Shown here: in pieces, positions 15,369 through 53,048 of the stretch
How positions within the stretch are numbered: position 1 is the stretch's first letter
Layout: the number at the start of each line of letters is the position of its first letter
Source of the DNA: Bryoerythrophyllum caledonicum
Lineage: Eukaryota > Streptophyta > Bryopsida > Pottiales > Pottiaceae
Length of the DNA: 64,000 bases
Direction of reading: 5' to 3'
NCBI GenBank assembly: GCA_963971425.1
Contig: OZ020514.1
Coordinates: 26,152,602-26,216,601, forward strand
Notes under the pieces: model-generated
Databases searched by the model: none
What the model was told of the DNA's origin: nothing
The model's input: only the letters and a program-made list of their open reading frames with translations
Made by a program: the position numbers and the translations under genes

Positions 15369-18196
15369 CTTGAACTCGTCGCAAACTCTAATGTACTCAT
15401 TCCCAGCCTTCTGGGTGATTCAAATCATCTTGACAGGCTCCTTCAATGGCTTGCTACCTACCCCCACGTCGCCCAAGCGCTCGTACTTCCCCTAAACATA
15501 AGACGTCACGCACTTCTCGTAATGTTCGACCCACGTTGAATTCGCAAGCTCAGCAAATGCCTAGACCTTGGCCTCATGGTCACCGCATATCCAGATCCAG
15601 ACCTTTGGTTGCGTGAGGCCCGGCATTCCTCCACTCTTCAACGTCTTCATGAAGTCTGTGAAGAAGGGGTTCAACACCCCGATTGTCGCCCTCCGCGTAT
15701 AATCTGGGAGGAAGCGGAAGTCGATCACCCCCAATCGAACATGTGAATCTGTCGGCCAGGAGTTTGCGGGCCACTGCCCGAGCGTATTTGTGGCCGCATT
15801 GTACTTCCGGAAAAATGCTGACTCAACACGCTTCATGAAGCTGGACCGCTTCTCCAAAACCTGTTTGAAGAAGGCCTTCGCGTAGGGAGAGAGCTCTTTG
15901 GCCTTCTTGTTCTTGCTCCTGAGCATCTTCCCTTCCGTGAAGAAGATCTTCCCCGATTGCTCGAGCAAGACGCGCATTGTTGCTGACCAAACGAAGTAAT
16001 CCTTCTTGAACTACTTCCAGCCGTCCGGTCTGAAGATTCCTGCGGCGTCAAAGAAAGCAAGGAAGGGTTTGATTCTGCATAACTCCCTCCTGACTAGCTG
16101 CTTTTTCTTGCGCCCCTCAACCTACTCCTTCACAGTGTAGTAGCTCTCCAGCACTGAAGTAGGCTGCTTGATCACCAGCTTTGGCCATCGATGTGTCCGC
16201 TTTTCTCTGCCGCGATCCAGGATGTGGAGAAGCATCTTCGAGTGATCGGACTCCGACATGTTGCGGAGCCACCTGAAGAATTCCCGGTTGAGCACCCCAT
16301 CCTTCGCAGCTTTCCAAGAAGACTTGTCCTTCATCTTGCGGAGATCTAGTGAGTCGACATCAATCAGCTCGCCCTACGCGTATGTCGATATGAACTCGCT
16401 CCAGAGAGCATAAGTGTCGCCGGAACAGGTGATGATCTTCACTTCGTTGTGAAGGTCAAGAGCATCGCTCTTGTTCTTCTTTCGAGCCGACCTTATATTC
16501 GAGTTCACATCGATACATGCAAATCAAAGCTGAAGTGCTTCGATGAATTCCTGCTATTTCACAACATGTCAGATTCCGGAAACTAAACAGCATGCACTTG
16601 GAAGCATGTTTAGCTCGAGTTGAGCTGAACATGTATGTCAACAATATTAATAAATCTATCTAACTAGCTACAACTTGCATCTGAAGAATAAGCATTATAT
16701 CAGTTCAACATGTAAATAGGAATTATGGAAACTAACATATTTATAATCAGCTCAACTCGAGCTGAATGTAGACAACTTACCCTCTACTTCTTATTGTTCA
16801 GGGAATTGCAACCATGACCACCGGGAGTATTCTGTGGCTTGGGTGGTGTCGGACGCCCCAAATTGAGCCAGATCGGTCGGGCACTGAGGATGTTCGTGGC
16901 CCACGACGGCTTGAAAATTGAGAAGTGGTTGACGTGGTTGTAGAACGCTGAAATTCTTCTCAGCTTCTCCTTGTCCAGAAACCACACCACAAGGTAGTCC
17001 GACGTTCAAAAGTGGCAAAGGATTGTCTCCGGTACCTTCTTCTCAGTGATCATTGCCTTGCTCGCCGCAACACTGTGTTTTCCATTGATGATCTTGAAGT
17101 TCATCTTCCCGATATCTTCCCAATCACCTGTGGGCTGTACAAGTGTGTCGGGAATCATGCACAATGTTTGTTTCGCCGACTTGTGAGGCATGTTGATCAA
17201 GTAGTTCTTCATGGACTCCACGCCCTTCTGCTCTATAGCCTAGATAGTCCAATCAACGGGAGCATTCGACATCTGGTTGATGTCGATCTCACGCTTGGCT
17301 TGGTTTGGGAAGACGAAGCAATCTTGGCATTCCGCCCAGAACTTCTCGTAGACGACCGTGGCATTCTCGTAATCGATGGTGTCGCCCGGCCTCACTTGCG
17401 TTGGTATACTCGTCAACGTAGAAGCAATGCTGACCTCCGTATTGCTCTGCGTTACTGCTAGGGTTTCTCCTGTCTACGTGCTGGTTTCCGACGCTGAGCG
17501 CCAGTGGCAACTGAACGCCTAGGTTGTCTCGGCTTTGCAGCCTCTCCTAGACGTGAGCCGCGTAGGTTACTTCCGCTTGGGCGTGAGGTCTTCCTCCCAG
17601 TCGAGCCTTGACTGATATTCGATTAACTCTCAATTCTGAGAGATACTTCACCTGGCTCCATTGAGGTTGAGAAGTTCCGTGTTTCAGCGACTCATTGTCA
17701 TCAACTGGAAAACTTTAGTCCACAACTTTGAAGTCAATGCTTTTGCGCGCAGTGGAAGTCCATTGGCCGTTACCCAAAACTTCTGATCCTACAACTCTTC
17801 AAGTCCCTTTAGCAATGATGTGAAGATTGTGTTTTCTAGACTGAAGAGCAGCGGAGCGGGGCTAAAGAACTGACTGGTGCTGTCAATCATAATGCAGTAT
17901 ACAAACTTTTGGGTCGTTTGTGATTGACACTTCAGTACAACCCATTTGTCTTGGTGGTCCACATCGAGGACTGGGTCTAACAACGCAGGTGCAAGGTAAT
18001 TTTCTTCACCCACCCATTTGTGTACCAGGGCCAAGGTGTTTGTTGTTGGGAGGTTTTGTAAGGACCACCCCTCATGCCGTTGGGATTCTAGAATTTCTTA
18101 GAGTGGTCCCATTGAAGAGTCGTTCCCGTCAACTATTTCAATTGCAACGTTGGAAGGCGCGTAGAACTTGTCGAGCAGTGCCAAGTGCTCCTCAAC
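15369..18196 (-). pseudogene. truncated left copy of ParB/methyltransferase-like gene
   Basis: Mirror of the gene at 27543-30544. Exon 1 is about 18196-16781 and the truncated exon 2 is 16550-15369. It shows the same HSVAASKAM, GRPTPPKP and PKVWIWICGDH segments and the same internal stops. The C-terminal GG-containing block is missing because the inverted repeat ends at 15369, where unrelated sequence begins. Upstream on the minus strand lies a TG-rich leader (about 20300-20000). Confidence 0.55.
16605..16770. repeat. two A-type palindromes in an intron, left arm
   Basis: 16605-16633 has arms CATGTTTAGCTCGA / TTGAGCTGAACATG around a central base. 16743-16770 is a looser copy ending AACTCGAGCTGAATGTA. 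Both lie in the intron of the truncated gene (16551-16780). Confidence 0.8.
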
Positions 18197-18285
18197 CTCA
18201 TTGCAGGCTTCAATTTTACAATGCCAGCTTCTCTTTTGTTTTACAACTTCAGATTGGCATCTTTGTGCTCAATGTTAACATTCAT

Positions 18286-18998
18286 ATTCAACTCGGTTAG
18301 AGTTGAATTTGTAATTTCTGTTTGTGGATTTAGTGTAATGTTGCTTTTCTCTGCAGTCTCTTTATATTTTTGATTAATAAAAAGGACTTTCTTTCATGCA
18401 CATTCAGCTCGGGTCGAGCTGTATGTGCAAGATGAGGATCTCATTATATGATCTATTGTTTAGATTATTTATCTCAAGGTGATTTTACGATTAGTACTCA
18501 TTCGACTTTACCGATAAGTAAATAATCGTAAATTTTTTTTCCAGAGGTTTGGCTTTCACACTCTTAGATAGTCATATGTGAGCACAATGTTGACATTCAT
18601 ATTCAACTCGGATTGAGTTGAATCTCAAATTTCTGTTTGAGGGTGCAGTGGTCTCATGCTTTTGATTGCAGTCTGTTAATATTTTTGAATGATGCCATTG
18701 TCCTTCGTATTATGCACATTTACCTTGGGTCGAGCTAAATGTGTAGGTAGGGGGTCGCGTTATATGGTTAAACTTTTAAATTACCAATTCTCATGGTGAT
18801 TTCACTTATGATATTCATTAAAATTATTCGATTTGGTTTATTATTTGATTTGCTCAAATTCTCATTGCTTGGTAAAGTGAAGCAATTTTGGTTCACAATT
18901 AGCTCGATTCGAGCTGAATCTTCCATCCTTTTATCCTATTCTCAATGCTCCATTAACTAGAATTGTGCATAATCGGCTCGAGTTGAGCTGATTATGCA
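18286..18998. repeat. six A-type palindromes upstream of the left ParB-like copy
   Basis: Positions 18286-18308, 18397-18429, 18601-18623, 18713-18744, 18898-18919 and 18966-18998. Most share an AGCTCGA-type core and differ in outer arms, each still self-complementary: CACATTC/GAATGTG-like, CATAATC/GATTATG, ATTCAACTC/GAGTTGAAT. Spacing is roughly 70-190 bp. Confidence 0.75.
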
Positions 18999-19189
18999 TG
19001 TAATCGGATGGAAGTCATTGATTTTGGGGATGAAAATTCTTATCTAGTGTGCGACATTTCTTCGTGAGAAGTAAAACACAGATTGCTTTGCTCCAATTGG
19101 TGAATCTCAACACCTACACATTGTACAAGCACAGATTCAAATAGCTGAAATCACATGGTCCGTCACAGAATTCTACTACTATGATAGAA

Positions 19190-19860
19190 AATTCACAGCA
19201 ACACGAAATCAACATCAACACAAAACCAATTGAATCACAAACTCAACAACAACACAAAAACAAACATAAACAAGAAATTGAAGCGATTCAAATACAAATA
19301 GCTGAAATCACAGCGTTTATTACAGAATTCTATTACTAGGATAGAAAACAGACAACAACACAAATTCAACAGCAACACAAAATTAGTTGAATCACAAATT
19401 CAACAACAACAGTAAATCAAACATGAACGAAATCATTAAGCGATTCAAATACAAAATGCTAAAATGATTGTGTTCATTACAGAATTCAACTACTATGATT
19501 GAAAAATAACAGCAACACGAACTCAAACATAAACTCAAACATGAACACGAACTCAAACATACACAAAAACACGAACTCAAACATAAACACGACCTGAAAC
19601 ATAAACTCAAACAAAAAACTCAAACATATACAAAGCTCAAACAGACACAGAGTTTAGACATACACAAAAATACGAACTCAAATATAAACACTAACTAAAA
19701 TATAAACTCAAACACGAAACTGAAGCATACACAAAACTCAAACATACACAAAGCTCAAACATACACAAAAACATGAACTCAAACATAAACACGAACTCAA
19801 ACATAAACTCAAACACGAAAGGTCAAACATTCACAAAACTCAAACATACACAAAAAAATG
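19190..19860. repeat. AAACTCAAACATACACAAA minisatellite
   Basis: Long purine/A-rich stretch of imperfect repeats built from AACTCAAACATAAACACG and AAACTCAAACATACACAAA, about 20-40 bp per unit. No coding potential. Confidence 0.65.
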
Positions 19861-19999
19861 AAGCAACTTCAAACTTACCAGTAATCTTCAAGTTTCTCAC
19901 TCCGAGGTCACGACTTTCTTTCATGAAATGCTCACGCTTGCTCCACACACAATGCAAAAACAATGCCGCGCCCAGAAAATCCCGCGCTAATCCTGACAT

Positions 20000-20300
20000 C
20001 AAACGTCCCGCACAGAAACCCTAGCAAAATACACACTACTCAACGGCGCTCACCCTCGATGCTTTACAGAAGCACCAGCATCACTCACAAACCACACTCA
20101 TTGACCACACACCGCACAAAGAGCACACTCACAAACTCTACACACACAAAACTCTCACAACCGCACTTTCCTATCACCAACACACCTTACACAACAAAAA
20201 CCTAACGACAAACGCACAGACGCAAACCCTACACACACGCACAATCCTAATGACAACGCGCTCTCTCGCTTACAACACCTTCAAAACCGGCGATCAAAAA
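20000..20300 (-). promoter_or_regulatory. TG-rich leader of the left A copy
   Basis: On the minus strand this reads as GTGTGTG/GAGTGTG-rich sequence followed by GGGTTT runs. The same layout precedes element C (45360-45640) and the right-edge C-type copy (63060-63560). Likely promoter or 5' leader; inferred from recurrence and position. Confidence 0.35.
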
Positions 20301-21027
20301 TAAGACGAGCAGAAACAAAACCTAGAAGAAAAGACCTCACTTTTCCACCCAACGCGTCAACTCTTGCGCACGGTCATAGGTGACCTTCCACACAGGTCCT
20401 TCAATCGTGGGGAAACCTAATCCACCACTCTCCCTACACATCCAATTTCCTTGTTCATAATATGAAAACTACATTAAAATGGTTGGACTATTGTGTTGCA
20501 ATGCATTGGCTCCACTTTTGGAATGTGACACATTTTCATTTCCGTGTTGCAATTTGTGCTCTTGATCACAAATTTGTCGTTCAAAATATTTTTTGAGTTA
20601 AGCACTAAAAGATTGAATTGTAAATTATGAGTTCTAAACTTCGAGTAAAATAGTTGTGAAGTAGGAGTTGTGATCTTGGAGGTTGGCATACAAAGTTGGA
20701 GTAGCAAAATTGTATATTCAAGTTGTGGAGATTGAAATAAAAAGTTTTGAGGTGAGATTGCAAGTTGATTTCGTGTGTGTGTGAAATTTGCAATTGTGTA
20801 TTGCAATTTGTGTTTATCCAAAATAAATTTGAAACTCTTGATTACAAATTTGACCTTCATAACGTTTTTGAAAATCCATGTTAAAATGAAAAAAATTTAA
20901 AACGTGATTTATTTTCTTCTATTCTATTCTATTACAAATTTATTAAAATGCATGCATAGGTTTCAAAGACATATTTTTATTTTATGTACATTGTTGTTAC
21001 TTTTTTTTTTATATTTTGTGATATAGC

Positions 21028-21082
21028 AAAATACATTAAAATAGTTGAATTAATGCATTGCAAAGCAAGCGCCAAGTGCTAG
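21028..21082 (+). repeat. dispersed element end, ..TTGCAAAGCAAGCGCCAA..
   Basis: ACATTAAAATAGTTGAATTA followed by TGCATTGCAAAGCAAGCGCC and a CTAGT end. Related copies lie at 20462-20505 (+, partial) and about 57228-57285 (-). The conserved CTAGT after a GC-rich stem is reminiscent of a Helitron 3' end, but I cannot show a hairpin plus a TC start. Confidence 0.35.
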
Positions 21083-21499
21083 TTACATCTAAACTTGTAA
21101 CCTTTTAGAGACATCATATATGTAAACTGGTATTCATCCTTGAAATTTAATCACCACATATTCTTTGATTTCTAGTACCACGTATTTTACCGCCTCAATT
21201 TGTCTTTGAGTTTCAAGGCCTATTATGAATCAATACATACTTATTTTTCCATTTCTTTGTCGTAAGCTTGAAATCTCTTTTAATTCACCATTACTTTGAT
21301 TATTTTTTATTTGATTGAATATTGTCAAATTATCATAAAGTTTATGCTCGCTACTTGTCATAGATTTTTAGTCATTGTAGTTGATGCATAATATATATTT
21401 AATCGCAATCTAATATTAGATATTCAATATTGAATAAGATATCAAATTTTGAGTTGAAATAGTTTCATTTAATATCTTCTAATAAGAGGACAGTCGGAT

Positions 21500-21650
21500 A
21501 TATACACCCAAAATTCTAATTTGAGATCCTACCGTCAAACAATAAATATAAGTTTTGTTTACTTCCTTACCTATTACACTAGAATCATTAATTTTTAAGT
21601 GTATTTGATGTGAAATTGTCACAGTTGTTTAAGAGTTCGCCTCTAAAGAG
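21500..21650 (+). repeat. dispersed non-coding repeat, copy 1 of 3
   Basis: Shares GAGATCCTACCGTCAAA, GTTTACTTCC..TTACACTAGAATC and TTTGATGTGAAATTG segments with about 44970-45100 and 61255-61400. No coding potential; a diverged interspersed repeat. Confidence 0.5.
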
Positions 21651-21745
21651 CCAAGTGCCACAAAATGGCATTTTGAAGGTTCGGTCAAGCTCCTATGGTG
21701 TCAATTTCTAGCATTCCTCTTTGAAATTTTTAGTGTGGAAGGGCA

Positions 21746-22103
21746 AGAAGAAGAACTCTGGTCTCCAAAGAAGACCACCATAAATATAGTGTTTGTTCAT
21801 TCACTTCACTAAGCATATGGCCACAGGACCTAGGCTAGTGTAATAGAACTACTCGCCCTTCTCGAGAGTAAACACTTCTCTACACTAAGTGCTTCTCTAC
21901 ACCAATTGCCTTAGAGACAATCGACATGTCATTTCCCCCAAGGGCTTTGTGGGTCCCCATACAACAAGGCCGTGGGACCCCCCACCATAATTGGGTGGAC
22001 TATGGTGGTAAGCACCACTCCGACAATAGGACTTGAACTCTCAACCACCTCACTGGTGTGCCATGACCCAAACCACTACACCAAGGCGGTAATGCCTATG
22101 TAA
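21746..22103 (-). mobile_element. tRNA-derived SINE with target-site duplication
   Basis: On the minus strand the head carries a pol III A box (TGGTGTAGTGG, complement of 22074-22084) and a B box (GAGTTCAAGTCC, complement of 22029-22040) at normal spacing; the 3' end is a TTCTTCTTCT tail. AAGGGCA flanks it on both sides (21739-21745 and 22104-22110). The host repeat has a second copy near 44250-44270 that runs through the same point without the insertion, giving an empty site. Confidence 0.75.
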
Positions 22104-22640
22104 AAGGGCATTACTATGACCTCAATGGGAGAGCAATTTTTTCTTAAATCCAACATTTATTGAAAAAGTTATAAGGTTTTGAATTTCACATGGGGTAGAA
22201 CGGGCACATTGACACCTCAAATTTTTTTTTGTTAGGACACTTTGTTGAATGTGAGATTTCCAATACTTGCAAGTAATATGATTTCCCTCTATATTGTCCA
22301 AAACAAGTTCTTGTCTTAAATGAAAATAGCATATTAATCTAAGTCAAACATTTTCACACATTGTCAGGCATGGTACCAAAAAAACTTCTTCTTTTCCACA
22401 TAACACTTAGAGATCTTCATATTTTAAACATTTTATGTTTTCCACAACAATATGTCGTGTAAACCTTCTTATTGACCATTTGGATTATCAATTTAAATCA
22501 TGTTAAGTTCACAAAAAATTTAAACAAAAATTGGCAATTTTTGAACCTCCACTCCTTGCACATTTGTATTGAATATGCTACACCCTTCCTCAACCTCTAA
22601 AAATTGGTTTATAAGGAACTAACATCATGTTGAACACAAT
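22104..22640 (+). repeat. dispersed non-coding repeat, copy 1 (pair with 44255-44800)
   Basis: Direct repeat with 44255-44800, roughly 75-80 percent alike by eye, including the shared block AACCTCCACTCCTTGCACA. Carries no open frame of note. The SINE at 21746-22103 is inserted in this copy only. From 22640 to 23450 I see only AT-rich sequence. Confidence 0.6.
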
Positions 22641-23457
22641 GGTAATGGTTATTTGGTGAAAAAGGGAAATTGTTCACAGTTCCGAATGGAATTTAATCAT
22701 TTTTACATATTCTATGAAACATCCTATATTATTGATACAAGCGTGATAAATATCAATTAAAAAATATTCACCTAACATACAATACAAGGGTATTAAAATG
22801 AACAAGGCTCATTTGAAATATCATAACAAATTTATACAGGTAAATGCAAACATCATATATTGAAGATTAATTCTACAGTAAAATTCTACGTGTCTTCGTA
22901 GTGCTTTATTCACATCAATGAAAAGTGCACTATCATTGAATTTCTAAATACATCATTTTTAATTATGTGAATCTAAAATAATTTTACAAAGAGATTATAA
23001 ATGTGGAAGTTTGCTTATTTTCAATACTATATTTCTACTATAAATTACCTTAATAAAAGTCAAGTTTTGACAACGCTTATGGTTAGTATTCACATTGTTA
23101 ACATACAACAGTAGCCCCTATAATTTGGCAACCTGATCATGTAACTTAATGCATGTTATGCAATGTACGTAATAAATACCGATTTTTTAAACATAAAATG
23201 ATCCAAGTTCATAAGGCTAAGTTGTGAATAATTATACACAAAACATGAAAGCATACTTATAAAAACCATAAATGGACAAATTATACATTGTAATTTAACC
23301 TGAGGTCATTTGTTCAATTAGTTGAAATAACTGTACACGGTGACTATAGATGAGTATGAATATGTTCTATAGTGAATTGCGAACCCATTCAAAACATCTA
23401 AATAAATGAAGGAATGTTAATAACAATTCATAAACATAAACACCAAAACTATGAAAA

Positions 23458-23553
23458 CCCTAAACCGCACACCCGAAGTCCTAACCTAAACTCCAAACCC
23501 TAAATTCTAGCCCTAAATCCTAACCTTAAACCCTAAACCCTAAACCTAAACGC
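23458..23553. repeat. telomere-like CCCTAAA stretch
   Basis: About a dozen perfect or variant CCCTAAA/CCTAAAC units. This is the Arabidopsis-type plant telomere repeat in degenerate interstitial form; such stretches also occur near plant promoters. Confidence 0.6.
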
Positions 23554-23861
23554 TGAATCCAAAATCCCATACAACGAACAATGAATCGTCCACAAATAGT
23601 ATAGAGATTTGGACCGCCGATATCCATCCTCCGGTAAACGGACAAAGCTATTTTCAATTCCCCAAATAATGTGATGCAATAATTGAGGTAGACTTTTTCG
23701 TCACCTACTTTTCCCGTCCAAAAATAGTCTTTCCCGCCCAAACTTCTGCACCATCTTTCCATCGCTCCCGGATCGACGTTGGTTCTCTCAGCACCAACCG
23801 CACTATTCGAACTCCTTCTTCCTCTTTCCTCTGCTTCGGTTTGCGCGTTGAGACTCTGCAC
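23526..23861 (-). CDS. possible first exon of unknown gene
   Basis: A 111-codon frame from 23861 whose first 85 or so residues look coding (acidic N-terminus, then GGKDYFWTGKVGDEKVYLNY), before it runs into the telomere-like repeat, which cannot be coding. If real, a splice donor should lie before about 23560. I do not recognise the protein. Confidence 0.22.
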   Translation of the reverse strand: MQSLNAQTEAEERGRRSSNSAVGAERTNVDPGAMERWCRSLGGKDYFWTGKVGDEKVYLNYCITLFGELKIALSVYRRMDIGGPNLYTICGRFIVRCMGFWIQRLGLGFRV

Positions 23862-24363
23862 GTCTTACATTGTTTGTGTTAGCCATTGGTTTTCCTACTT
23901 CTTCTAGAGTTATTAGCATCTGCGTTGGTGTAGAGTTATTAGCATTTGCGTCGCTATGATAGAGTGTGAAATTTTCCAATGAGATTATGCATTGTTCAAG
24001 CGTCGCTATGAGGTCGCAAGAAGGTGCCTTTCGGCGCGTGGATGAGTAGGGTATCTCTTTCTGTCTTCACGTACAACAGTTTGACGAACGTTCTCTTTGT
24101 CAGGTATGATTAGTTCTTATCTTCTCTCCCTCTTGACGTTTGCTTTTCAGTGGGGTGTCGTACTTTCAATATTGTGTTTTAGGATAATCGTTGACGTTCG
24201 TACTGAAGTCGTGCAATGTTGTGGACCATTATGTTCATTGCAATGGTTATGACCGTAATTGCTACAGTGTATCATAAAACTTGTAAACTTCACGTCTCCG
24301 CGTATGTCGCCGCATATTTCGGGGTACGAAATGACCTAATCGACAAAGTGGAAGGACCTCGGT

Positions 24364-25020
24364 CACACATTCAGCTCGAGTCGAGCTGAATGTGTTGGTC
24401 ATGAGGATATTCTGTGATTAATGAAGAGCAACATCCTCAGAATGTGGCTGGAACTTGGAAGGCGAGAGTTCAATAGCAATTTTAGTTGCACATTCAACTG
24501 GAGTCCAGCTGATTGTGCACGACGTGAGGAGATAATGTAATCAATGTAGAGTAGCTACCCTAAGAGTGTTGCTTGAACTTGGAAGGCGTGAGTTCAACAA
24601 CAATTTCAGTTACACATTCAGCTCGACTTGAGATGAATGTACGCGGCGTGAGGACTTCATGTGATCAATGTAGAGTAGCAAACTCAGAATGTTTCTCGAA
24701 CTTAGAATGCGAGAGTTCATCAACAATTTCAGCTGCACATTCAACTCGAGTCGAGCTGATTGTGCACGAGGTTCGGGCATCATGTGATAAAAGGATAACA
24801 ACAACCATAGAATGTCTTGAGGAACTTAGAAAATAAAAGAAAAAATTCAATTCCCATTGCACATTCAAATGGAGTCGAGATGATTGTGTACGATGTTAGG
24901 ACTCCTCTAGAACGCCGTAGAATACCACCCGCAGAATGTAGGTTGAACTTCGAAGGTGAGGGTTCATCAGATGTTGCCATGGCACATTCTTCTCGAGTAG
25001 AGCTAAATATGCATGATCGC
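24364..25020. repeat. six-unit tandem array, about 122 bp per unit, one A palindrome each
   Basis: Palindromes at 24364-24394, 24488-24520, 24612-24642, 24733-24766, 24859-24890 and 24982-25012, so the spacing is 121-126 bp. Between them recur GAACTTGGAAGGCG.GAGTTC, AACAATTTCAG and GATCAATGTAGAGTAGC. The first palindrome is perfect: arms CACATTCAGCTCGA / TCGAGCTGAATGTG around one G. Later ones carry mismatches. It lies directly upstream of the DUF7869 gene. Confidence 0.85.
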
Positions 25021-25207
25021 AGGACATCATTCGTTCACTTGAATTATATTGGTATTTGAGAGCTGGGATTAGCCAGCTATTCCCGTTGCACAATTAATTT
25101 GAATTCTTCTGATTATTCACATCAGCCACTATTAAATTTTCAGTAGTATATTAGTGAGTACAGTTCACTTCAATACTAATGTGAATATGGATATGGTTTT
25201 TGCTTTC

Positions 25208-25236
25208 CACATTATGCTCGAATCGAGCTAAATGTG
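25208..25236. repeat. A-type palindrome upstream of DUF7869 gene
   Basis: Arms CACATTATGCTCGA / TCGAGCTAAATGTG around one base. A weaker copy follows at about 25336-25364. Confidence 0.7.
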
Positions 25237-25470
25237 CATCCTTCAATACTCCATCCTCCTTGCCCTCAAATTAAAGAGGCTTCACTCTCATAGTTCATCC
25301 ATTGGAGCATGGACAAATCATGCATTATCTATTGACAATCACCTCAAGTCGAGCTGAATGCGCCATTGAACTAGATTATTTCGTCTACACTAATGCCGTC
25401 TCTATATGCTCTGGCAGATTTGAGATGGTGAGTTCAAGCACTGCTAGCTTCATCGGCAAATTCAATTCCA

Positions 25471-26850
25471 ATGATCGAAATCAAGTTAGACGTTCATAGA
25501 CAACTCTGTGTTGACAGCAATGGTCGAAATGTTGTCACCCGGGAGGGAATTGACGTCTGCCCGGCTGCCTGGCAACATATCATGGGCGTCAACGAGACCT
25601 CGTTCTATATGTATGCGAGAGACGCAGCTGCTGGTGTTGCTACTCAACCACATGATAATACTGGCTTAAAGAAACCTAGACATCACACAATTGTCGCCAC
25701 TGCCGCTTTGCGCGTCATCCTTAATAGGAACGCCGACCACATGCCTCATAAGACTCGAGTACTTCCGTCTGGTGAGAAGGTTGTTGCAAAGATTCTACCT
25801 TCAAATTTCAAGTGGAAAGACCAAATCCCTCTGCTTGACTCTCATTTAGCAGATTGCGGACTTCCACCGATATCGACTTCTGGACTCAAAAAGGTGAGAC
25901 AGGTCCACTTTCTTGATTTCAATGCAAAACGGCCTGAAGATAATTTTGCACGATGCTCTTTTTTTGATGATTGCCAAACCCAAAGGAAGTTACATCGGCC
26001 TGGAACTCAGGCCGCTTTGGTATCGCAGCAAAAGTTGAACACCCACTTGGATTCCGCAATGGCCCATCGGAAGTTGTATTATTCCAATCGATACCGTTCT
26101 CAGGTATCGCTTGATGAATGTCTCACCATTATGCATGATAAGATGGATCACTCCAAGACTGCCTCGCCTGCCCTTTCTCACAAGATCAAGCATGTCGACA
26201 GCCTTACGCAATTACCAATTTCAATAACAGGAATGCTTGCACATGGTCATAGAGACATTCGTTATGCTCATTATGGCTTAGATATTTATTCGCATGATGT
26301 CAATTACACTGTCGCTTCTTTTGCCAAGCTGTTGCATGATTTGGAACAAGCCCCGAAGGCTTCTAGTCGAGACTTGTTTGAAGGATCCGGGAGGACTGCA
26401 TTGTTCCGTGTTGTGTTGCACGGTGCCAAGGATGCGTGTGTGCCTGCACTACCCGAGGTTTATGTGAATTACATGCTAGTTGGACACACTCATGATGACA
26501 TTGATGCGTTATTTGGTCGATGGAGTATGGCATTGAAGAGGGAGAATTTCCTTACCGTTCCTTTGCTGATGAAATCATTTATGGAGATTGAAGCAGTTCC
26601 AAGAGTTCCACACCTTATTGAAGAAGTTCCAGACTTCAAGTCCTTCATTAGTGATGGAATTTTAGTTGGAGACGAAGTGCTTTGGAGTCACTCAAAGGCT
26701 CACCAGCTCAAATTCTACGTTGATTGTAATGGATGCCCGGTACTGAAGTATAAGATTCTGTGCCATAGTGATAATTGGCTTCCGCAAGATGGAGGAATCA
26801 AGTTGTGGAAAGAGGATTCCATTCTAATAGTAAATTTAACCAATCTTTGA
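25471..26850 (+). pseudogene. DUF7869-like element protein, N-terminal part
   Basis: A 459-codon frame free of stops; the true start could be further upstream. N-terminal VC..AW..IMGV and MPHKTRVLPS, then IMHDKMDHSKT, ITGMLAHGHRD, VGHTHDDIDALFGRWS, PHLIEEVPDFK and GGIKLW, all collinear with 6279-7782. Relative to that copy about 45 residues are missing in frame just before VYVNYMLVGHTH, including the LDDATRDNKNRY block. The family similarity ends at about 26810; the rest of the protein resumes at 34855, so the gene is split by about 8 kb of element A. All 15 or so Gln codons here are CAA or CAG. Confidence 0.65.
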
Positions 26851-26994
26851 AAATTTAAGCTAGCCATACATGTAGCCAAACGAACAAAAATACAAGTAAT
26901 ATATCACACGATAGATTCGCATGAATATCTTAACTAAAATTACCAAGACAGTTGGTAATCTACGTAGTAAACCATAAAATGCGACCCACTAATT

Positions 26995-27453
26995 GCATGT
27001 TTAGCTCGACCCAAGTTAAATGTGCATAATACGAAGGACAATGGCATCATTCAAAAATATTAACAGACTGCAATCAAAAGCATGAGACCACTGCACCCTC
27101 AAACAGAAATTTGAGATTCAACTCAATCCGAGTTGAATATGAATGTCAACATTGTGCTCACATATGACTATCTAAGAGTGTGAAAGCCAAACCTCTGGAA
27201 AAAAAATTTACGATTATTTACTTATCGGTAAAGTCGAATGAGTACTAATCGTAAAATCACCTTGAGATAAATAATCTAAACAATAGATCATATAATGAGA
27301 TCCTCATCTTGCACATACAGCTCGACCCGAGCTGAATGTGCATGAAAGAAAGTCCTTTTTATTAATCAAAAATATAAAGAGACTGCAGAGAAAAGCAACA
27401 TTACACTAAATCCACAAACAGAAATTACAAATTCAACTCTAACCGAGTTGAAT
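26995..27453. repeat. four A-type palindromes, inner end of right arm
   Basis: 26995-27026, 27116-27138, 27310-27342 and 27431-27453, the mirror copies of 18713-18744, 18601-18623, 18397-18429 and 18286-18308. The inverted-repeat boundary lies inside the first. Confidence 0.75.
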
Positions 27454-30370: not shown

Positions 30371-30602
30371 TCGCCGAATCATGCCGCCAATGATAAGACT
30401 CGCAAGTACCGGGAGCAAGATTTACGCGTGATCAATGGAGAGCTTACAATGGAGTTCTACTTCTTCATACTTGGAATGTTGTGCAAGCCAGGGGATGTCA
30501 TCTTTTCAGCGTTCGGCGGATCAAAAATCATTATTGGAGCAGTGGTAAGTGCTTCTGAATTTTTCTTATTTTGTCGTTGTTATCTACCGTATCATTCAAT
30601 TG

Positions 30603-30677
30603 TCAAATCAGCTCGACTCGAGTTAAACATGCAGCGTGGATTTAAGTGCTACATGATTAGCTCAACTTAAGCTGATT
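30603..30677. repeat. two A-type palindromes inside intron 2 of the ParB-like gene
   Basis: 30603-30631 (AATCAGCTCGA / TCGAGTTAAAC) and 30656-30677 (ATTAGCTCAA / TTAAGCTGATT), 55-130 nt before the acceptor at about 30732. Confidence 0.75.
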
Positions 30678-35589: not shown

Positions 35590-35660
35590 TTCAATTAACA
35601 TAGTATATTGTTATAAGTGTTTTGTTTGTGAGTGAAATTCATAATTGAAATCATATTATT

Positions 35661-38291: not shown

Positions 38292-38568
38292 AGCAATTCT
38301 TCTTCAAGACCAGGAACGCCAATGACCCCCGATGGTGTTGATCTCCCTAATGAGCCCCTGTCTCCTCACGTGGATCGCGTAGGCAATCCATGCAGAGATT
38401 GGTTTGTTAATTAGCTTACTATAGCTTGAGAATTTAGTGACCTAGCGTGCAACTAATTTTCTGAAATATTTATAAACCCTTCTTGATTTTGTGGTCAGGT
38501 GCATTGCAAATTTTCTGTTCGATTTTATGAAATATTCTCTGACCTTGTCATATCTTTCGAGTCGGTCC

Positions 38569-38585
38569 GTCGGCTGGCAGCCGGC
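38569..38585. repeat. B-type palindrome in the intron before the first phosphatase unit
   Basis: GTCGGCTG / CAGCCGGC around one G, one mismatch. The acceptor ATTCAG lies 40 nt downstream, at 38621-38626. Confidence 0.8.
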
Positions 38586-38626
38586 TTAGGATCTAATGTC
38601 CTGTAAATGGTCTTTCTTTAATTCAG

Positions 38627-39612: not shown

Positions 39613-39631
39613 CATCGGCTGCCAGCCGATG
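39613..39631. repeat. B-type palindrome between phosphatase units 1 and 2
   Basis: CATCGGCTG / CAGCCGATG around one C. Perfect, with the outer arm changed from GTC/GAC to CAT/ATG on both sides. Confidence 0.85.
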
Positions 39632-39839
39632 CTGAAACTGATCCCATTTCGTTTCGTAACTTTTGTCATGACTATGGAATTTTATTTTTGAGTTTGCACA
39701 GTGATAATATCTTTGTGTGAATGTTTACCCACAATAAACATGGCTTGTAATTATCTCAACTTCCTCTGCACTTATGATTTCTTAATTCATGCATCGTCAT
39801 CCATTCATTTCTCCAAGTTAACCCTGGGATTGGCGATGC

Positions 39840-40572
39840 AAGTGAGTGGTCTTTATCGCTCCACGGCAGACCATCTGAGAAGGTCAATAAGTATTTCCTT
39901 GTCCTATCCTTGAACGGTCTGTTGATGGCGCAAGGTGTTGGAGCCGACAAGAAATGGCATACCATCTTCTGGCCGATGCTGAGAGAGTTTCTCGAGTTCT
40001 ATGTTTCCAACTTCACTGAGGCAGTTTGGAGTGACTAATCCAACTCTTTTCTGAAATTACAAATGGAAGCTCTTGAAGGACAGTGTGGCATTGTTAGACA
40101 AATTAGACATCGTTTCCTCAACAGTTTCTGCAACACACAACGTTCAGCATGGGGGCAACTAAAGTCATGGGATTCTTGGCCGATGAACATTGACATGTCA
40201 TTTTTGATAGACGCTTTTTATTCGGGCCTGATGCAAATGAGCGGAACACGCTTCTCGTTGATCCCTTTCCTCTCGAGAATATCCTCAATAGCCCCTATAA
40301 TGCTCTTCATCCTTCTCTATTTAAATATAATATTCCAGAGATCTTAGTTCCCAGGATGCAGCCGTATCTCTTGAGTGCGTTAATTCCCTGGCTCTTGGGA
40401 CTTTTGAAGTCTGGAGTCAATGTTCACCAGTACTACTCTTCAAATTGGGAATTCGGAATGTCTCGAGTGTACCCTGGTTGTTTCAGCATCAAAACTACAG
40501 GGAGGTCATCTATTCCCAAGCCTTGGGTTTCGACGTGCCATACTGTCCCGATGAAGTGGTATCCAAGCTGTT
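39840..40572 (+). pseudogene. element B NLI/FCP1-like phosphatase unit 2
   Basis: KYFLVLSLNGLL, then FWPMLREFLEFYVSNFTEAV followed by W, and after a frameshift near 40140-40230 NTLLVDPFPLENIL, SPYNALHPSLF and LLSALIPWLLGLL. The nucleophile Asp is Ser and the DD pair is DP. TAA near 40036 follows VWSD. Order and spacing repeat unit 1, so this is a tandem duplication of the domain. Confidence 0.55.
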
Positions 40573-40803
40573 AATTGCCTACTCGAACTGAGTATCCCTT
40601 GTTTCTTCAATGGGCTTTTCCGAGTTTCTCTTCCTCTTTACAACTATCGACAATCATAAACTGAACCTTTAATACCTTGTAATTTCTTAATTTTTGCAAT
40701 CTTAAGATATATTTTCTCATTCCAGTTTTCTTGTGTATATGTATTGCCTTTATAACATGTCTGTGATTCATCTCTTATGATGGTCCTGTGCGTTGTTATG
40801 CAC

Positions 40804-40822
40804 CGTCGGTTGGCAACCGACG
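40804..40822. repeat. B-type palindrome between phosphatase units 2 and 3
   Basis: CGTCGGTTG / CAACCGACG around one G. Relative to the others C has become T on one arm and G has become A on the other, so pairing is kept. Confidence 0.85.
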
Positions 40823-46245: not shown

Positions 46246-46640
46246 GTTTATCCTTGAGTCGAGGATAAACTCCATGTATGATATTGTGTGAAACTATAGT
46301 CCATCAATTCTGCAGTGTCAAACCAACGTATTAAAACGTGAGTCATAGCAAAAAACAACCATTTTTGAGTTGCAGTTTATCCTCGAGTCAAGGATAAACT
46401 CTATGCAAGATAGAGTGCACGATATGTAATTTGACATTTCTAAAATGTTATTGGTAGGTTGTAAAGAGTTCAGAATAAATTTACTCAACCATGCAGAAGT
46501 TGCACTTTATCCTTGAGTTGAGGATAAAACATTTGAATTTGATTATGCTGCCATAAGAGTCCATAGAAAGTAAAAGATCACCTTGTCTGCAAGGCATGTT
46601 AAAAAGAACAATTACAAGTTATTCTTGAGTTGAGGATACT
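46246..46640. repeat. four C-type palindromes in the leader intron
   Basis: 46246-46270 (GTTTATCCTTGA / TCGAGGATAAAC), 46375-46399 (GTTTATCCTCGA / TCAAGGATAAAC), 46505-46529 and 46618-46640. Each has a 10-12 bp stem with one central base; spacing is 113-130 bp. Confidence 0.85.
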
Positions 46641-46911
46641 TCAGGTCTAAAACAACTTCATAAGAAAAGAACAACTCTATCGTAGTGAGCACATCAGAGT
46701 ACGTGATATCATTCCACTAAATAATCCAAATTCATACATAGGTCAAAATATACTATATGCATTAGTTAAATACTGATCATAATCCATCACTCTCCTCAAT
46801 CTGCTCCAATTATGTACAACTCTCATAGATGGTTTCTCAGAAATGCACATAAATCATATAAAATTGCAATCTTCTTTCATTATTACAAATTTGAAGCAAA
46901 GATGTAAAAGG

Positions 46912-47059
46912 TATCCTCGATTTGAGGATAAAAGTTTTCTTGGCTTTTTAAGAAAGAGATTAATTAACCAATAGTTATCCTCGATTTGAGGATAAAAGTT
47001 TTCTTGGCTTTTTAAGAAAGAGATTAATTAACCAATAGTTATCCTCAACTCGAGGATAA
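46912..47059. repeat. 64-bp tandem duplication, one C palindrome per unit
   Basis: Units begin at 46912 and 46976, with a partial third at 47040. Each opens with a C palindrome (TATCCTCGA..TGAGGATA); the third has TTATCCTCAA / TCGAGGATAA. The intervening 44 bp are identical in both full units. The array ends about 45 bp before the first C exon. Confidence 0.85.
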
Positions 47060-47105
47060 AGCTAAGAGATTGCAACTAACATGTGCGTAATTATGGATTC
47101 TGCAG

Positions 47106-50042
47106 ATGGCATCTCAACTCCAGCAAGATGATGATAACTACAACTACCTAGCCTTTGAGATTTTCATCATGAGGTTTAAAAATCCATTGGCACCATCTCT
47201 GTTTATAGACAATGTCGTGGAGAACTATGGGTCTTTGAGGATGTTCAAGGACACCGTAAAGACTCGGTCAATCTCAAAGTTTGGGAAGGTCATTCAAGTA
47301 ATGCTGAAGGTGAACGATGACGTCCCATTTGTGCCACTCAACAGAAACAAGCGGGTAGCTTATGTTGAGCAGCAGCGGAGAGAGTACATTGTACTTGACA
47401 TTCAGGCATTTGACAAAGCTAGAGTTAATCTGCCACATTGCCACTCTATTGTCATGAAAGTTGGTACCCTGCTTGGTCAATTTGACTTTACCAGATTGCT
47501 CGAAAGTGTCATAAGAAACGATCAAGGGTCGCTAAGGGAGGCGTTCAAAAAGTATGAGCCTTGGACATAGGAGGATGCCGAATAAGATAATAGGCGATTG
47601 GGACGAATTCACCAATTGCTCTCAACGTTTGAAGCTCGACTAATTCCAGTCGCAGCCAATCCTCGTCGTCAAGCACGCGGAAAAGCAAAAGTCCAACCAA
47701 ATCCTTTGGGATCGACCGGTTCTCGTACTTCAAGTCGTGCTCCTCCTAGACAACCATCAACAACGCCAGCAACGCTAGGAGAACCCTCGACCAAGAAGAG
47801 AAAGTCCGCCACTGGAGGCAGCTCAACATCCACTATATCGAGGGCCACGACTATTAAGAAAGCGCAAATTGACCCTCAGGTGGACTCTTAGAAGATCACG
47901 GAATCATAGCGCATGTTTTGGGAGGAACGCAGAGGGTGCTTTCCTGTCAAGTCCTCGTATTCGGTGCAAATCCAGTAGTGTGTGGTCGCAAAAGCACAGT
48001 TTGTGATTTGGGAGATGGAGGAAGGCATTGTGTTGAGCACGATGGACTTTCTTGTGCAACTTGGCGAAGTCAATCAACGCCAAAAGATCTGCATCTATTC
48101 AATCGGTGAGCATGGTGAGCCAATAAAGACAAAGCCCATCTCATGGGATGCCATCAAGGATGACAAGTTCATGCTTATCAGGAGACAACATAGTGTCGAG
48201 GCATCTAAGAGACTCCAGGACAATGAAAATTGTGGAGAGACTTAAAAAAGAGACCTGCAGCAATGGGATGCATATGTGGTTTTGTCGAGAGATCCTCTGA
48301 AGTTGTAGAGGATTTCAAAGTTTTACAATGACATCAACTACCTCGGCCATGCCCAACCGACTTGGGAAAATCAGATCTCAAGTTGCCGCCGAATTTGGCT
48401 CAACTCTGGACGTCCTAGTTACGAACAAGAACAAGGGATAACTCGGATGAATGGCGCTGTCTTTGACACAAGGAAGTATCTGGTTAGTTGTCCTTCTGAG
48501 TAGTATCCTTGAGTTGGAGATACTGACTTGCAATGCCCTTTAGTAAAATACATCTAAGTCCCTTATAATGTTGTCCTTCTGGGCAGTATCCTCAAGTCAA
48601 GATCACAGAATTGCTTTGCGTGGCATTAGTAAAATACATCTAAGTACCTTTTATTGGACTACATGCTTCTTCACTCATTTTATGTATTAGACTTGACAAA
48701 TCTTGTCTTGTGTTTGTAGCTCTTTTTGAAGCTCACTGTCAACCCCTTCCAGAATATTGATCCAACATAGGAAGGAAAGCAGGTTAACAAGTCATCGGAC
48801 CTGACAAATGAGATCAAGGTGATCTCACTTCCGGATGACATTCTCAAATTGTAGGAGGATTTCCTTGAGATCCACAACAAGGGAGAGATTATCAACCTTG
48901 ACACCATGACTCCCTACAACAAGGCAAAGGGCAAGAGAGTTTCACCGATCCTTCGCAAATTCTTCAAGAGTCAGGGCCATTTTACCGACAATGACTTAAG
49001 GGATTTGTTTCCTTACCTAGTATACATCGATCAAGCATACGGGTACCCAAAAATTACTCTCCAAAGAACGAGCGTGGTTCAAGGCTCTTGCTTCCAACAT
49101 GAAGATTTAATCAATCGTAGGAAGAAGAAGCGCATTGTCAAGCAGGAGTTGATTGCAATTGACCTGTCTTTGAAATTTTTACTACTAGACCGGTCTGTTG
49201 ACAACAAGGTGTGGAAGTCGTGGAAGGAAGATCACCCCGTGTCTTTTGCAACTTATAACATGCTCTTTTGTCGTCCCGGAAAGGAGTTCTTTTGCATGAG
49301 GCTGACAAATGCAGGGAAGTTGAAGCGAGCTTCTCACTTAGTGGAGAAGTTTCTCAACGTTCTTCTCTTCTTGACAAAATTCTTGTTCGTGAAGAGCCAA
49401 TTCTTCCCACACAACGGCCCTTCTAAGCTTCGAGACTTCAATGGGGAAAGAATGGAATTTGGTGAGTATTTCAACCCACCAACTGTGGACAGAGAGTGGC
49501 CTTTTGGACTGCTTGACCTTCGTCAGGTCCCTGGGTGAGCATCTAAGGACAACTCGGAAGAGGAGCCATACTTCTCTGCCTTTATAAAGACTCTGTTGTC
49601 TCAGATGAAGGTCCCGACCCTAAATACTCCTGCCGTTTGGGTTTGAAACACCTCTTTTGAAGACAGAGCAATGCATGACCAAAGGTATGCAGAGAAATGG
49701 ATGAAGAAGTACAAATCCATTTCTTCCGTGTATATGGCATCAGCGTACGAGCAGCTCAACTTGGGAATGTCAATGTCCAAATGTTCTGAGGTATACCTTC
49801 TATTCCTCATTCGTAAAGACCATCCTCAAGCCCCTGCTTTGCTTGAAAAAGTGCTACCAAGTTATTCTGCCGTGGACACATCATATTACACGGAGAAGAA
49901 CAAGTACTTGGAGGCATGTTATGGTGTCCACGACTGTGAATTGCGGATGGAGTTCTTCCTCTAACTCATATGGCAATTCTCGAAGTATGGAAACGGTGTA
50001 TTTGGTATATACTCTGGCTCAAAGTTTGTGCTCGCGAGCAAG
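47106..50042 (+). pseudogene. element C ParB-like plus DNA-methyltransferase-like protein
   Basis: Exon 1 47106-48482 starts with ATG right at the acceptor; exon 2 is 48720-50042; phase 0 as in A. Exon 1: N-terminal domain, Ser/Thr/Arg-rich linker, then a ParB-like part (IRRQHSVEASKRLQ, then RISKFYNDINYL and RRIWLNSGRPS). Exon 2: long helical part, FGLLDLRQVPG, EEPYFSAFIKTL, PAVWV, TGA, NTSFEDR and GNGVFGIYSGSKFVLASK, the degenerate motif I equivalent. About twelve in-frame stops (TAG, TAA, TGA) but no frameshift. The TGA after PAVWV replaces Trp of A; a TAG in A aligns with CAA here. Family names are by motif reading. Confidence 0.5.
48503..48608. repeat. two degenerate C palindromes in intron 1 of element C
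   Basis: 48503-48523 (GTATCCTTGA..TTGGAGATAC) and 48588-48608, each following GTCCTTCTG.G.AGTATCCT, within the intron 48483-48719. They appear to be a short tandem duplication. Confidence 0.6.
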
Positions 50043-50068
50043 GTATTTTGTTATCTCTTCATTGTTCA

Positions 50069-50093
50069 GTTTAACCTCGGTTTGAGGATAAAC
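50069..50093. repeat. C palindrome in intron 2 of element C
   Basis: GTTTAACCTCGG / TTGAGGATAAAC around one base, 27 nt after the donor at 50043. Confidence 0.75.
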
Positions 50094-50429
50094 TTATTCC
50101 GATTGTGTGTTATGTAATCTTGATAACTCTTGTGATGTATACATGGTCAATGTGTTTCCGGAATGCTTTTAAAGTATGCTTCTCTCTTGCACCAATTTAG
50201 CATTACTTAGAACAAGTTGTTTATCCATGGGTCAGAGATAGAATCATAATTATCAAAATTTATACTATACGCTTGTGTCATTTGATTCTTAAAAAAAATT
50301 GCATGTTGTATTCTGCACATGTTTGGAATTTTGTTCTACGGTGTCATCAACAAAGACTACCAATTGTCATACAAGTTTAACACAAAGATGATATATAAGT
50401 ATGACATGAATGATTTCATTCATAAAGAT

Positions 50430-51020
50430 TGTGCGTACGCTGGGTCTATGCCATCATCAACCGGAATTCCGCAACCCGCAGCGTTGCGCAACACCTCAGT
50501 ACGCAGGACCTCACAGACCGCAGTACCTTGGAGCAGCTCAGAGTGCAAGACCACGCGATCTGCACCAGTTCGATCTAGTAGCCGTAGATCCGACGATCAT
50601 CCTAGTGTTGCTTCTGAAATGGATTCAGAGTGGATTTAGCCTGAGGATGATGAGGATATGGAGTTTCCTCCACAACGGCCTTCCTTCCATTCACCGATTG
50701 CATCTAACCGGTGTATTCCGAAGGACTGTTTGGACTTCAACCCGTATGTTAGCAATGATGGTGTCGATTTTTTTATCCTTGGCGACAATGAAGTTGTGCC
50801 ATCTCGTATAGCTATTGACATTAGCAGTAAATCATCTCTATCATCAGTGCTTGGTGCTAGAGATGACAATTTGCAAACGTTTGACGAAGTCGTGCCATCT
50901 CGTATCCTAAGTTCACCACGTGATTGTCTTGGGTTTGAGCCTCCAACAGCTATGGATGCTCCAAAGGTTTCAGCACCGAATGTTCTGGATAATTCCATCA
51001 TTCTGTTGTCGGAATTCTAG
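50430..51020 (+). pseudogene. element C Ser/Arg-rich and acidic linker
   Basis: Low-complexity frame with SSSRRSDDHPSVASEMDSEW, then TAG, PEDDEDMEFPPQRPSFHSP and duplicated VVPSRI segments. It occupies the place of the acidic linker of elements A and B between the methyltransferase-like and phosphatase-like parts. Ends TAG 51018-51020. No domain recognised; from 51020 to 51900 coding is unclear. Confidence 0.35.
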
Positions 51021-51925
51021 TGACAGCAAAGGTGGAAGAGATCCCGTTCCAAGCAGTTGGACGGCAAATCCGGCTCTCGTCAAGAAAATCGATTTGGAGA
51101 AAGCTACAGATTGCAAGATCCATTCTTGTACAACGCCATTGGTGAAGCCCCTGCCCCCGGAGAACCTGTTAAGTATGAAGTTGGAGGTGACTACTTCACG
51201 CACATTCTTAACAAACGCCTCAACAGCCGATGAACACGGTGCTCCTTTTGCTCCGATGTTGTCGCCATAGCCAAAACCTGCTTGTCTCCAACGGTCTGCG
51301 GAATGCGACGAAGAGACCAATAGGGTAGAGGCGCCTTTGGCACAAGAGGATGTTTGCATGGTGGACGAGAATTGAGTCAACTATGAGCCCTCACCTGAAG
51401 ATCCTAGGCAGCGTGCATCTGAGGAGAATAAAGTTGGCTAGCCTTTGTGGTCTCTTTTCATGGTTTCATGACGTGCTCTAGCGGTGCCTTTTTTGAAAAA
51501 ATTGCTATTAGTTGCAGTAGGTCTTATTTGTATTTGAGGTGGCTTGCTGGTGTCGGATCCTTACAGTTTTTTATGTACAGTAGGACGAATGTACAAATTT
51601 TGTCTAAAACCACTTTGTTCATAATTTAAAGAATTGTTTAACAATTCAATTTTACTCAATTGTTTTCTCATATGAGTTTGGATGACATTGTTCCATGTCC
51701 TCTTGCACTAAAGCCTCGGAATGGGAAAGTTTTTTAGCGATTGTTATGTGGAGTGGAATTCATGCAATCAGTGACAGTTCCTTTTCATGTTGCTCAATCT
51801 GCATTTCATCAGGTACTTTCATTTGTTTCTCCATTGAATGTTTTGTGTGTTCGTCCTATACTAGGACCGTCCTCATAGGAGTGTGTCTGTTGTTCAAAAC
51901 ATTCGGCCTCTGAAGTAGCTAAATA

Positions 51926-52662
51926 TTGTCCTGGATTAAAATGGCATCTTGTGCGAGGTTGCATATGCGTATGCCTTCTCGAGGTGCTCTTGGAGTCGAG
52001 CACAGTTTTTGCTTACCATTCCTGCGTACATAGGTCCAATAGCTCTATATACTCGTCCTGTCGTGCATGAGTTTCTGGCGAACATCAGAGAACTTTCAGA
52101 CTTTGTTGTCATCTGGAGCTCAATGATAAAGTCCACCGTAGAGGAGATTGCAAATTATCTCTTCCGTGATATGTCTCCTCCAGATCTCGTTCTTGATCAG
52201 GAGAGTTGTAAGAAGATTGAGACGTCATGAAATAAGTTTTTGATGGCTGAGGATAATTCAAAGAAGATCATTTTATTGAAAACGTTGTCTTCTAGGGTAT
52301 TTGAATGTCAAGATGACTTGGGTGTCTAGAACTCTGACAACACTCTTCTTATAGACGACAGCCCGGAGAAGAGCGTTCGTAATCATTCTGGAAATGCCAT
52401 TTTCCTCCATCCATGGCGACACAGAGCAAAGGATGATAAGTTTCTGATTCAAAAACTTCTTCTTTGGCTACGTCATTTGGTTTTTGAAAGCCATGTCAGG
52501 CAATTGAAGGATTATGTTGATAGCAACCGTATTGGCATTCCACCGCTGGCGACTAGTAGTCCTTTGATGAAGTATATTACAAATGGAATGGCTGTCTCTT
52601 CAAAGAACCTTGGTGTAGAATATGAGATTCGAGATGTTGCTACATCATCTACTAGGTTGTAG
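51926..52662 (+). pseudogene. element C NLI/FCP1-like phosphatase domain
   Basis: VLD, TAA, NGILCEV gives the DxN motif with a TAA at the variable middle position; then YTRPVVHEFLANIRELSDFV followed by VIWSS, IILLKTLSSRVF, NTLLIDDSPEKSV and FLHPWRH, ending TAG 52660-52662. TGA (about 52228) and TAG (about 52327) interrupt without a frameshift. Unlike A and B it keeps the first Asp and the full DDSP motif, so it is the copy most likely to derive directly from an active phosphatase. Confidence 0.6.
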
Positions 52663-52970
52663 CTGTGCTTATTAATGTACAGTACAAGAGTAGGCAATAT
52701 GTTTTGACAAAATAAACTCCTTCGTAAATATATATTTTTTCATCGGAAGATATATGGACTTGTTTCTTTTTACTGTAACATTGTTATTGTCTTCTATAGT
52801 AATTTCCTATGAGCTTTAATTCATTTGTGGAGACGTTTATTTATCGTTGGATCAAGCATATTATTTAATGTTGTGTCGGGCTTCTTTGTTATAATTGGGT
52901 CGAGCCTAAAATTGATCGGTAGATTGAGTCGAAAAGTTATTGATGGGTCAAGCATACTATTTATCCTCGG

Positions 52971-52993
52971 GTCGACCATAAGTTGGATTGCTT
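52971..52993. repeat. degenerate C palindrome before the tail exon
   Basis: TTTATCCTCGG..TCGACCATAAG, 55 nt before the acceptor at about 53048. Preceding sequence holds several GGGTCGAGC/GGATCAAGC words that look like eroded copies. Confidence 0.5.
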
Positions 52994-53048
52994 TGAATGT
53001 TAAATTCTCATTCTCATTGATTTCTCTATCATGTCGTTCTCATTGTAG

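Follow-up and report, generated by a model that had tools for sequence, protein, structure and literature searches.

CACTA and related DNA transposons have subterminal repeats, and fusions of ParB to DNA methyltransferases exist in phages. The VANDAL elements of Arabidopsis bear family-specific motifs in introns, intergenic and terminal non-coding DNA, to which the VANC protein of the same elements binds (PMC5735166, in the parts dealing with these motifs); VirB offsets silencing by H-NS (PMC10653881); and the short palindromic repeats of green algal organelles occupy intergenic and intron DNA and fall into several classes (PMC2670323, in the sections on these repeats). Here, a stretch of 64,000 nucleotides of Bryoerythrophyllum caledonicum (GCA_963971425.1, contig OZ020514.1, positions 26,152,602 to 26,216,601; hereafter the window) was analysed, in which short palindromes are scattered through elements of two types, one encoding a ParB-fold exon, a methyltransferase-like exon and a NIF phosphatase (ParB-type) and the other carrying a DUF7869 gene (DUF7869-type). 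An earlier note on this DNA had stated that its author knew of no transposon class with such marks, which overlooked the VANDAL elements (PMC5735166, in the same parts). No report of the present element group was found in the open-licence literature searched. The palindromes fall into families that follow the clades of the element genes, and we consider it somewhat probable that the elements of each family encode a sequence-specific DNA-binding protein which recognises the palindromes of that family.

Palindromes were counted at set mismatch thresholds, with ten dinucleotide shuffles of the window serving as the null. Family A (AGCTCGA-N-TCGAGCT) was represented by two exact 15-mers, by 18 sites at ≤2 mismatches (mean of 0 across the shuffles) and by 29 sites at ≤3 mismatches (shuffle mean 1.2, maximum 3). 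Family B gave one exact copy and four sites at ≤3 mismatches (0 in the shuffles). For family C, no exact 21-mer and 12 matches at ≤5 mismatches were obtained (shuffle mean 0.3); the match at 25212 belongs to family A, so that the true C sites number 11 and span 46248-63903. The window palindromes are genuine but degenerate, and their numbers lie far above chance. The three families were located as follows:

16612..36473, no strand assigned: family A palindromes, 29 sites at ≤3 mismatches (first start 16612, last start 36459), dyad reaching ±15
37453..40821, no strand assigned: family B palindromes, sites at 37453, 38569, 39614 and 40805
46248..52981, no strand assigned: family C palindromes of the first C element, sites at 46248, 46377, 46507, 46619, 46911, 46975, 47039, 50071 and 52961
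62023..63923, no strand assigned: family C palindromes of the second C element, sites at 62023 and 63903

The earlier note had placed three families at about these positions and described them as unmixed; both statements were borne out, A, B and C following one another without interleaving.

Palindrome family and gene clade agreed in 13 of the 13 ParB-type elements examined that had both genes and palindromes. These elements came from this genome and from three contigs filed in a cyanobacterial bin, an inverted copy in the window being excluded as a duplicate; several of them extend past the stretch seen, and L026 was assigned from its ParB gene alone. They were distributed as follows:

Family A, five ParB-type elements: window, L001, L002, L027/L031 and L032
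Family B, three ParB-type elements: window, L033/L015 and L025/L032 (variant B2)
Family C, three ParB-type elements: window, L007 and L005
Family D (even-centred), two ParB-type elements: L021 and L026

The ParB sequence of window C was 75% identical to that of L005, which has C sites, and 37% identical to those of L001/L002, which have A sites; the window A sequence was 54% identical to L001/L002 and 35% to L005. A phosphatase tree of 11 rows grouped B with B2 (support 99/98), the C copies (100/99), L031 with L032 (100/100) and window A with L001 (87/89). Where two families met in a sampled locus, each palindrome stayed with its own genes: in L032, B2 sites lay over B-type and A sites over A-type genes, and in L027, an A-type ParB gene was covered by A sites, the C sites being located upstream of DUF7869. 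In the set of elements studied, both the palindrome mark and its fit to the gene clade are solid, and the family-specific mark proposed in the earlier note is well supported, relatives from another assembly included.

These relatives were obtained by scanning bacterial genome contigs with an alignment of the ParB exon, which returned two matching contigs, L001 and L002, in the cyanobacterial bin AVDCRST_MAG81. Each contains eight A sites in a de novo test, several of them perfect. A third contig of the bin, L005, contains five C palindromes and no A cluster, with one loose A match at 3 mismatches. GT-AG introns read in L001 and L002 make contamination by plant DNA likely, and all three contigs are probably from a plant. 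One protein, P0128, also bears the name of a Leptolyngbya bin. Some metagenome proteins have tails that were read as translation running on into the A palindrome, for example those of P0121, P0124 and P0131, which end in QLESS. Scans of viral contigs with two proteins and one alignment returned no relative. The distant copies bear on the idea that tandem duplication and element copying passively multiplied a functionless ancestral palindrome. Part of the sites do stand in tandem arrays, where they are related and represent fewer events than sites, as in the following feature of the window:

24366..24902, plus strand: tandem array with a unit of about 123 bp and an A palindrome in each, upstream of a DUF7869 gene

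Other sites, however, occupy separate introns and spacers, and many are perfect where the element has kept its genes open (L001, L002 and L005); the same site recurs in the other assembly at 54-75% protein identity. Passive spread is highly improbable in our estimate.

The mark was common to both element types. DUF7869 elements carried A sites (window, L024) or C sites (L027), as ParB-type elements do, and in the DUF7869 tree the C copy stood apart from the A copies. The DUF7869 relatives, among them one from Physcomitrium patens (P0020, 51%) along with close copies in metagenomes (P0001, 80%), suggest that the genome is that of a moss. Right ends are family-specific and likewise common to both types. 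The A right end (AATCTCCCAATTTAAYGAATATGG) was found at three places, two of them ParB-type and one DUF7869, and the C right end (TGTCYCATTTKAATRAATATGG) at four, two of each type; L024 gave a weaker match. All of the eight right ends aligned terminate in AATATGG, four continuing with TGTT. Left ends were looked for in the elements and not found, and no target-site duplication was established. The window contains these right ends and one DUF7869 fragment of the C group:

34831..34854, plus strand: A-type right end of an inserted ParB-type element
36498..36521, plus strand: A-type right end of the outer DUF7869-type element
54239..54259, plus strand: C-type right end of the first C element
1081..1101, minus strand: C-type right end
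6850..7851, minus strand: DUF7869 gene fragment, grouping with the C-type copy of L027

The fragment lacks the 5' part and no palindromes were found beside it; the right end at 1081..1101 probably belongs to the same minus-strand element. The statement of the earlier note that each element carries its own palindromes needs correction: the mark is common to ParB-type and DUF7869-type elements of the same family, so that it marks the family.

The same sharing of palindromes and right ends is consistent with binding of the palindromes by the DUF7869 product, a presumed transposase that would move its own and same-family ParB-type elements, the scattered sites representing extended subterminal repeats; one DUF7869 relative (P0100) is called a transposase by its source. 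Introns and spacers well away from the element ends are filled with sites as well, however, and the clades of the ParB-type protein track the sites too, and we regard this explanation as possible, though on the unlikely side. The short sites repeated within the element resemble the subterminal repeats of CACTA elements but run through introns and spacers, and the right ends, with AATATGG(TGTT), differ; no CACTA ends were found among the eight aligned.

The sites avoided coding sequence. Within 3 kb of coding matches, 11 of 163 sites fell inside the matches, against 67.9 expected, and in part of these 11 cases an open frame seems to continue into an intron; in L001, the sites lie in introns and spacers. 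A family-specific motif concentrated in the non-coding parts of the element is a trait shared with VANDAL elements, in which the short motif is dense in the element's own non-coding DNA, is often in tandem and diverges together with the family (PMC5735166, in its description of the motifs). The VANC motifs (YAGTATTAY; AGTTGTCC) differ from the present ones in being non-palindromic and arrayed in one orientation (same description). A further difference is that two element types share the site here. Pfam scans of 40 proteins (a subset of the open reading frames (ORFs), scanned without the VANC profile) gave DUF7869, DUF659 and NIF above the cut-off and no Mutator-type domain. VANC/VANDAL anti-silencing is used here as the nearest working model, by analogy and without assigning the elements to VANDAL.

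Another explanation is that the palindromes matter as folded RNA or DNA, or stay symmetric by template-switch mutation, with no dedicated reader. The form of the sites was compared with shuffles. In family A, the inner 7 bp are fixed, and positions 1-7 are alike through consensus only (84 unique of 87 sites), the core symmetry of 0.829 being no more than the consensus gives (0.826 in within-locus shuffles). Positions 8-15 vary among sites yet pair within the site (each 0/200 pooled shuffles), the pairing fading after ±15; within loci, the outer arms are self-complementary over these positions (0.669 versus 0.591 in shuffles, 0/500). This self-complementarity is not needed by a plain dimer site and suggests a hairpin or arm-to-arm copying, which can mean that either exists beside a protein-read core. 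Taken singly, L024 and L027 gave no significant arm pairing (80/500 and 71/500). Family C paired weakly (0.682 versus 0.645, 11/500). B showed no pairing past position 9, which argues against folding or copying, as do the core being fixed per gene clade, its symmetry staying at the consensus level and the confinement of the sites to one element group in the samples. A precedent comes from the organelles of Volvox, where introns and spacers contain short palindromic repeats that are regarded as selfish (PMC2670323, in the same sections). The present palindromes resemble such algal repeats in their position in spacers and introns and in their several classes; they differ in being nuclear, limited to one element group in the samples and tied by their core to a gene clade. 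Folding or copying with no dedicated reader is quite unlikely on balance. As a separate observation, the outer arms of A sites differed by element between L024 (2033-2547) and L027 (93-2844), with cagttt- or cacttt- ahead of the core, which suggests sub-families within A. CpG decay was rejected as the main cause of site variation: CpG transitions exceeded the share of positions in window C only (13/27 deviations with 0.20 of positions CpG), the other counts being 14/54 in window A (0.29 of positions CpG), 5/32 for C in L007, 3/18 for B in L033 and 0/5 in window B.

Genome-wide, the exact A core occurred in 6187 copies and the exact B palindrome in 440 copies (437-Mb genome; reversed control patterns, 0 each), and among the matches listed both lay in clusters. 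Their distribution was sampled in 18 stretches of 10 kb, taken at even intervals along a single contig (C1, which holds the window at 26152602-26216601), to which some neighbours were later added; half of L011 consists of N. All 18 stretches were searched with a first set of gene queries and 10 also with a fuller set. Palindromes in numbers were present in seven stretches (L015, L018, L021, L024, L025, L026 and L027), six of which have element genes in the stretch or a neighbour, the exception being L018. An even spread was not seen, 11 of the 18 stretches of this contig being without these palindromes in numbers, and no spread into unrelated non-coding DNA, as for selfish short palindromic repeats, was found in the 18. 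The largest cluster (G+C of 0.35 or more) in 72 shuffled 10-kb segments was 2, whereas the fullest of 24 real segments held 7-12; AT-rich clusters of three to five palindromes were set aside. L024 contained A palindromes, L027 both A and C palindromes, and L015 two B sites, with nine more in the neighbouring L033. The search for further elements with further cores, suggested in the earlier note, yielded the even-centred family D (CCGGAGATCTCCGG) in L021 and L026 and variant B2 in L025 (three palindromes, GTCGGCGG-S-CCGCCGAC); family D also contradicts the claim that all families have an odd central base. The even palindromes of L018 (CTGCCGATATCGGCAG; seven to eight copies at 3369-7202) are genuine repeats that perhaps represent a further type of palindrome-marked element. 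The two ORFs beside them had no Pfam match, no element query matched L018, and its palindromes were left out of the tally. Three similar even palindromes (CCTAGTTAGATCTAGG) were also seen in L028 (726, 5801 and 6078), above the shuffle maximum of 2. An extra even cluster in L031 (ATGTC...) was dropped on account of its poor sites.

The structure model of the ParB exon (P0130; mean predicted local distance difference test (pLDDT) score 65.4) matched Noc, ParB and sulfiredoxin in Foldseek with probabilities of 0.99-1.00 (best E 0.0018). The exon contains the conserved stretches NGQHS and YNR-NH, which we take to sit where the nucleotide-binding motifs of ParB are expected, NGQHS presumably standing at the place of the usual ParB motif. 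A helix-turn-helix-like stretch after the ParB domain differs between families (SAATMRLLLEQPG in L001, SSATYNMLLVRPD in L005), and the ParB-fold protein with its possible helix-turn-helix is a natural candidate for the putative reader. The model of the second exon (mean pLDDT 49.8) gave weak matches to DNA N6/N4 methyltransferases and METTL14 (best E 0.031). The DPPY motif of active amino-methyltransferases appears to be absent from it; at the place inferred from motif order, A-type relatives have DFR and C-type copies DLR. In each of A, B, B2, C and D, one member gave a match to PF03031 (NIF phosphatase). The combination of a ParB-fold protein with scattered palindromic sites, to which binding is predicted, recalls ParB-parS and VirB, from which the present case differs in the eukaryotic element, the many sites and the methyltransferase-like exon. 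The order of a ParB-fold exon followed by a methyltransferase-like exon similarly recalls the phage fusions, with the differences of D-x-R at the DPPY place and of the weak fold match.

From the confinement of the sites to the elements, their agreement with the gene clades, their position outside coding sequence and the sites and right ends common to the two element types we infer that a protein reads the palindromes, which protein this is and that it serves against silencing. The putative reader, most likely the ParB-fold/methyltransferase-like protein, would load at the palindromes that its own family has in promoters, introns and spacers. Once bound, it may keep the family's DNA open against host silencing or mark it for the transposition machinery, and it may serve partner DUF7869 elements bearing the same site likewise; new families would emerge as protein and site diverge jointly. 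Several observations weigh against recognition by an element-encoded protein. The ParB match is modest, with no Foldseek hit below 0.001, no ParB family in Pfam and a best PDB sequence match of E 0.04, and the possible helix-turn-helix after the domain (helices 161-171 and 175-183) was read by eye from a low-confidence model with a mean pLDDT of 49.8. In the phosphatase tree, the fork between window A with L001, L031 with L032, and C lacks resolution, so that the A sites are not tied there to one clade. Single stray matches to other families occurred at the loosest thresholds in L005, L014, L017, L020, L021, L029 and L031, and a B site with one mismatch lies at 8546 in L021, just beyond the D sites of that stretch. 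To these are added the even family of L018, which comes without recognisable element genes, and the self-complementary outer arms of family A. The B-type sites beyond the D-type sites in L021 (8546-8960) are perhaps those of a neighbouring B element beyond the stretch. A more far-reaching form of the proposal, in which a ParB-type protein and parS-like palindromes were turned into self-recognition of a eukaryotic transposon, the protein loading, spreading over the element, countering silencing and serving its own and DUF7869 elements while protein and palindrome changed together (odd/even switches included), seems unlikely.

The genes of the window are interrupted and decayed, and their layout is not bacterial in style. 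The three elements of the earlier note were recovered as gene regions of A, B and C; the A region, however, consists of nested elements and an inverted duplicate, and the C sites belong to two elements. A single element at 16.6-36.5 kb was accordingly rejected. The ParB/phosphatase element (about 26.8-34.85 kb) sits inside the DUF7869 element (24.3-36.52 kb), and both finish in identical 24 bases, at 34854 and 36521. The insert of about 8 kb that splits the DUF7869 gene has no counterpart in the relatives P0001 and P0002. The second C element, whose start lies near 62-63 kb, extends 7.9 kb past the window to position 7906 of the right flank, L007. In this flank, 12 C sites were counted at ≤5 mismatches, and the genes follow the order of the first C element. 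The remaining features are:

15369..18818, minus strand: inverted 3450-bp duplicate of 26921-30370 (99% identity), with four A sites repeated
25480..26820, plus strand: DUF7869 gene of the outer A element, first part
26821..34854, plus strand: inserted ParB-type A element (left border approximate)
27573..28937, plus strand: ParB-fold exon of A, decayed
29189..30544, plus strand: methyltransferase-like exon of A, decayed
32401..33186, plus strand: NIF-type phosphatase of A (match to L001)
34860..35568, plus strand: DUF7869 gene of the outer A element, second part, past the insert
36543..40442, plus strand: family B gene region
36543-37028, plus strand: B, part of the second-exon homologue
37650-38288, plus strand: B, ORF
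38766-39479, plus strand: B, NIF phosphatase
39883-40442, plus strand: B, second phosphatase-like stretch
47604..48521, plus strand: ParB-fold exon of C, decayed
48720..50039, plus strand: methyltransferase-like exon of C, decayed
51844..52626, plus strand: NIF-type phosphatase of C (match to L007 and L001)

An alternative genetic code was rejected, the in-frame stops of the element genes being a mixture of TAA, TAG and TGA, as in decayed genes. An Rfam scan gave no match at gathering scores. The window further contains a DUF659 gene fragment (10252-11136, minus strand), which we assume to be hAT-type, and a degenerate AAACCCT repeat (23455-23564), presumably plant telomere-like.

If the reader were confirmed, the elements would join VANC as a further case of transposons that use a short DNA word to recognise their own family, here by means of different genes. 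They would also provide a plant nuclear transposon in which a ParB-type protein and palindromic sites form a pair. With at least four diverged families of sites and genes in one genome, the change of DNA specificity between families would become directly accessible to study.

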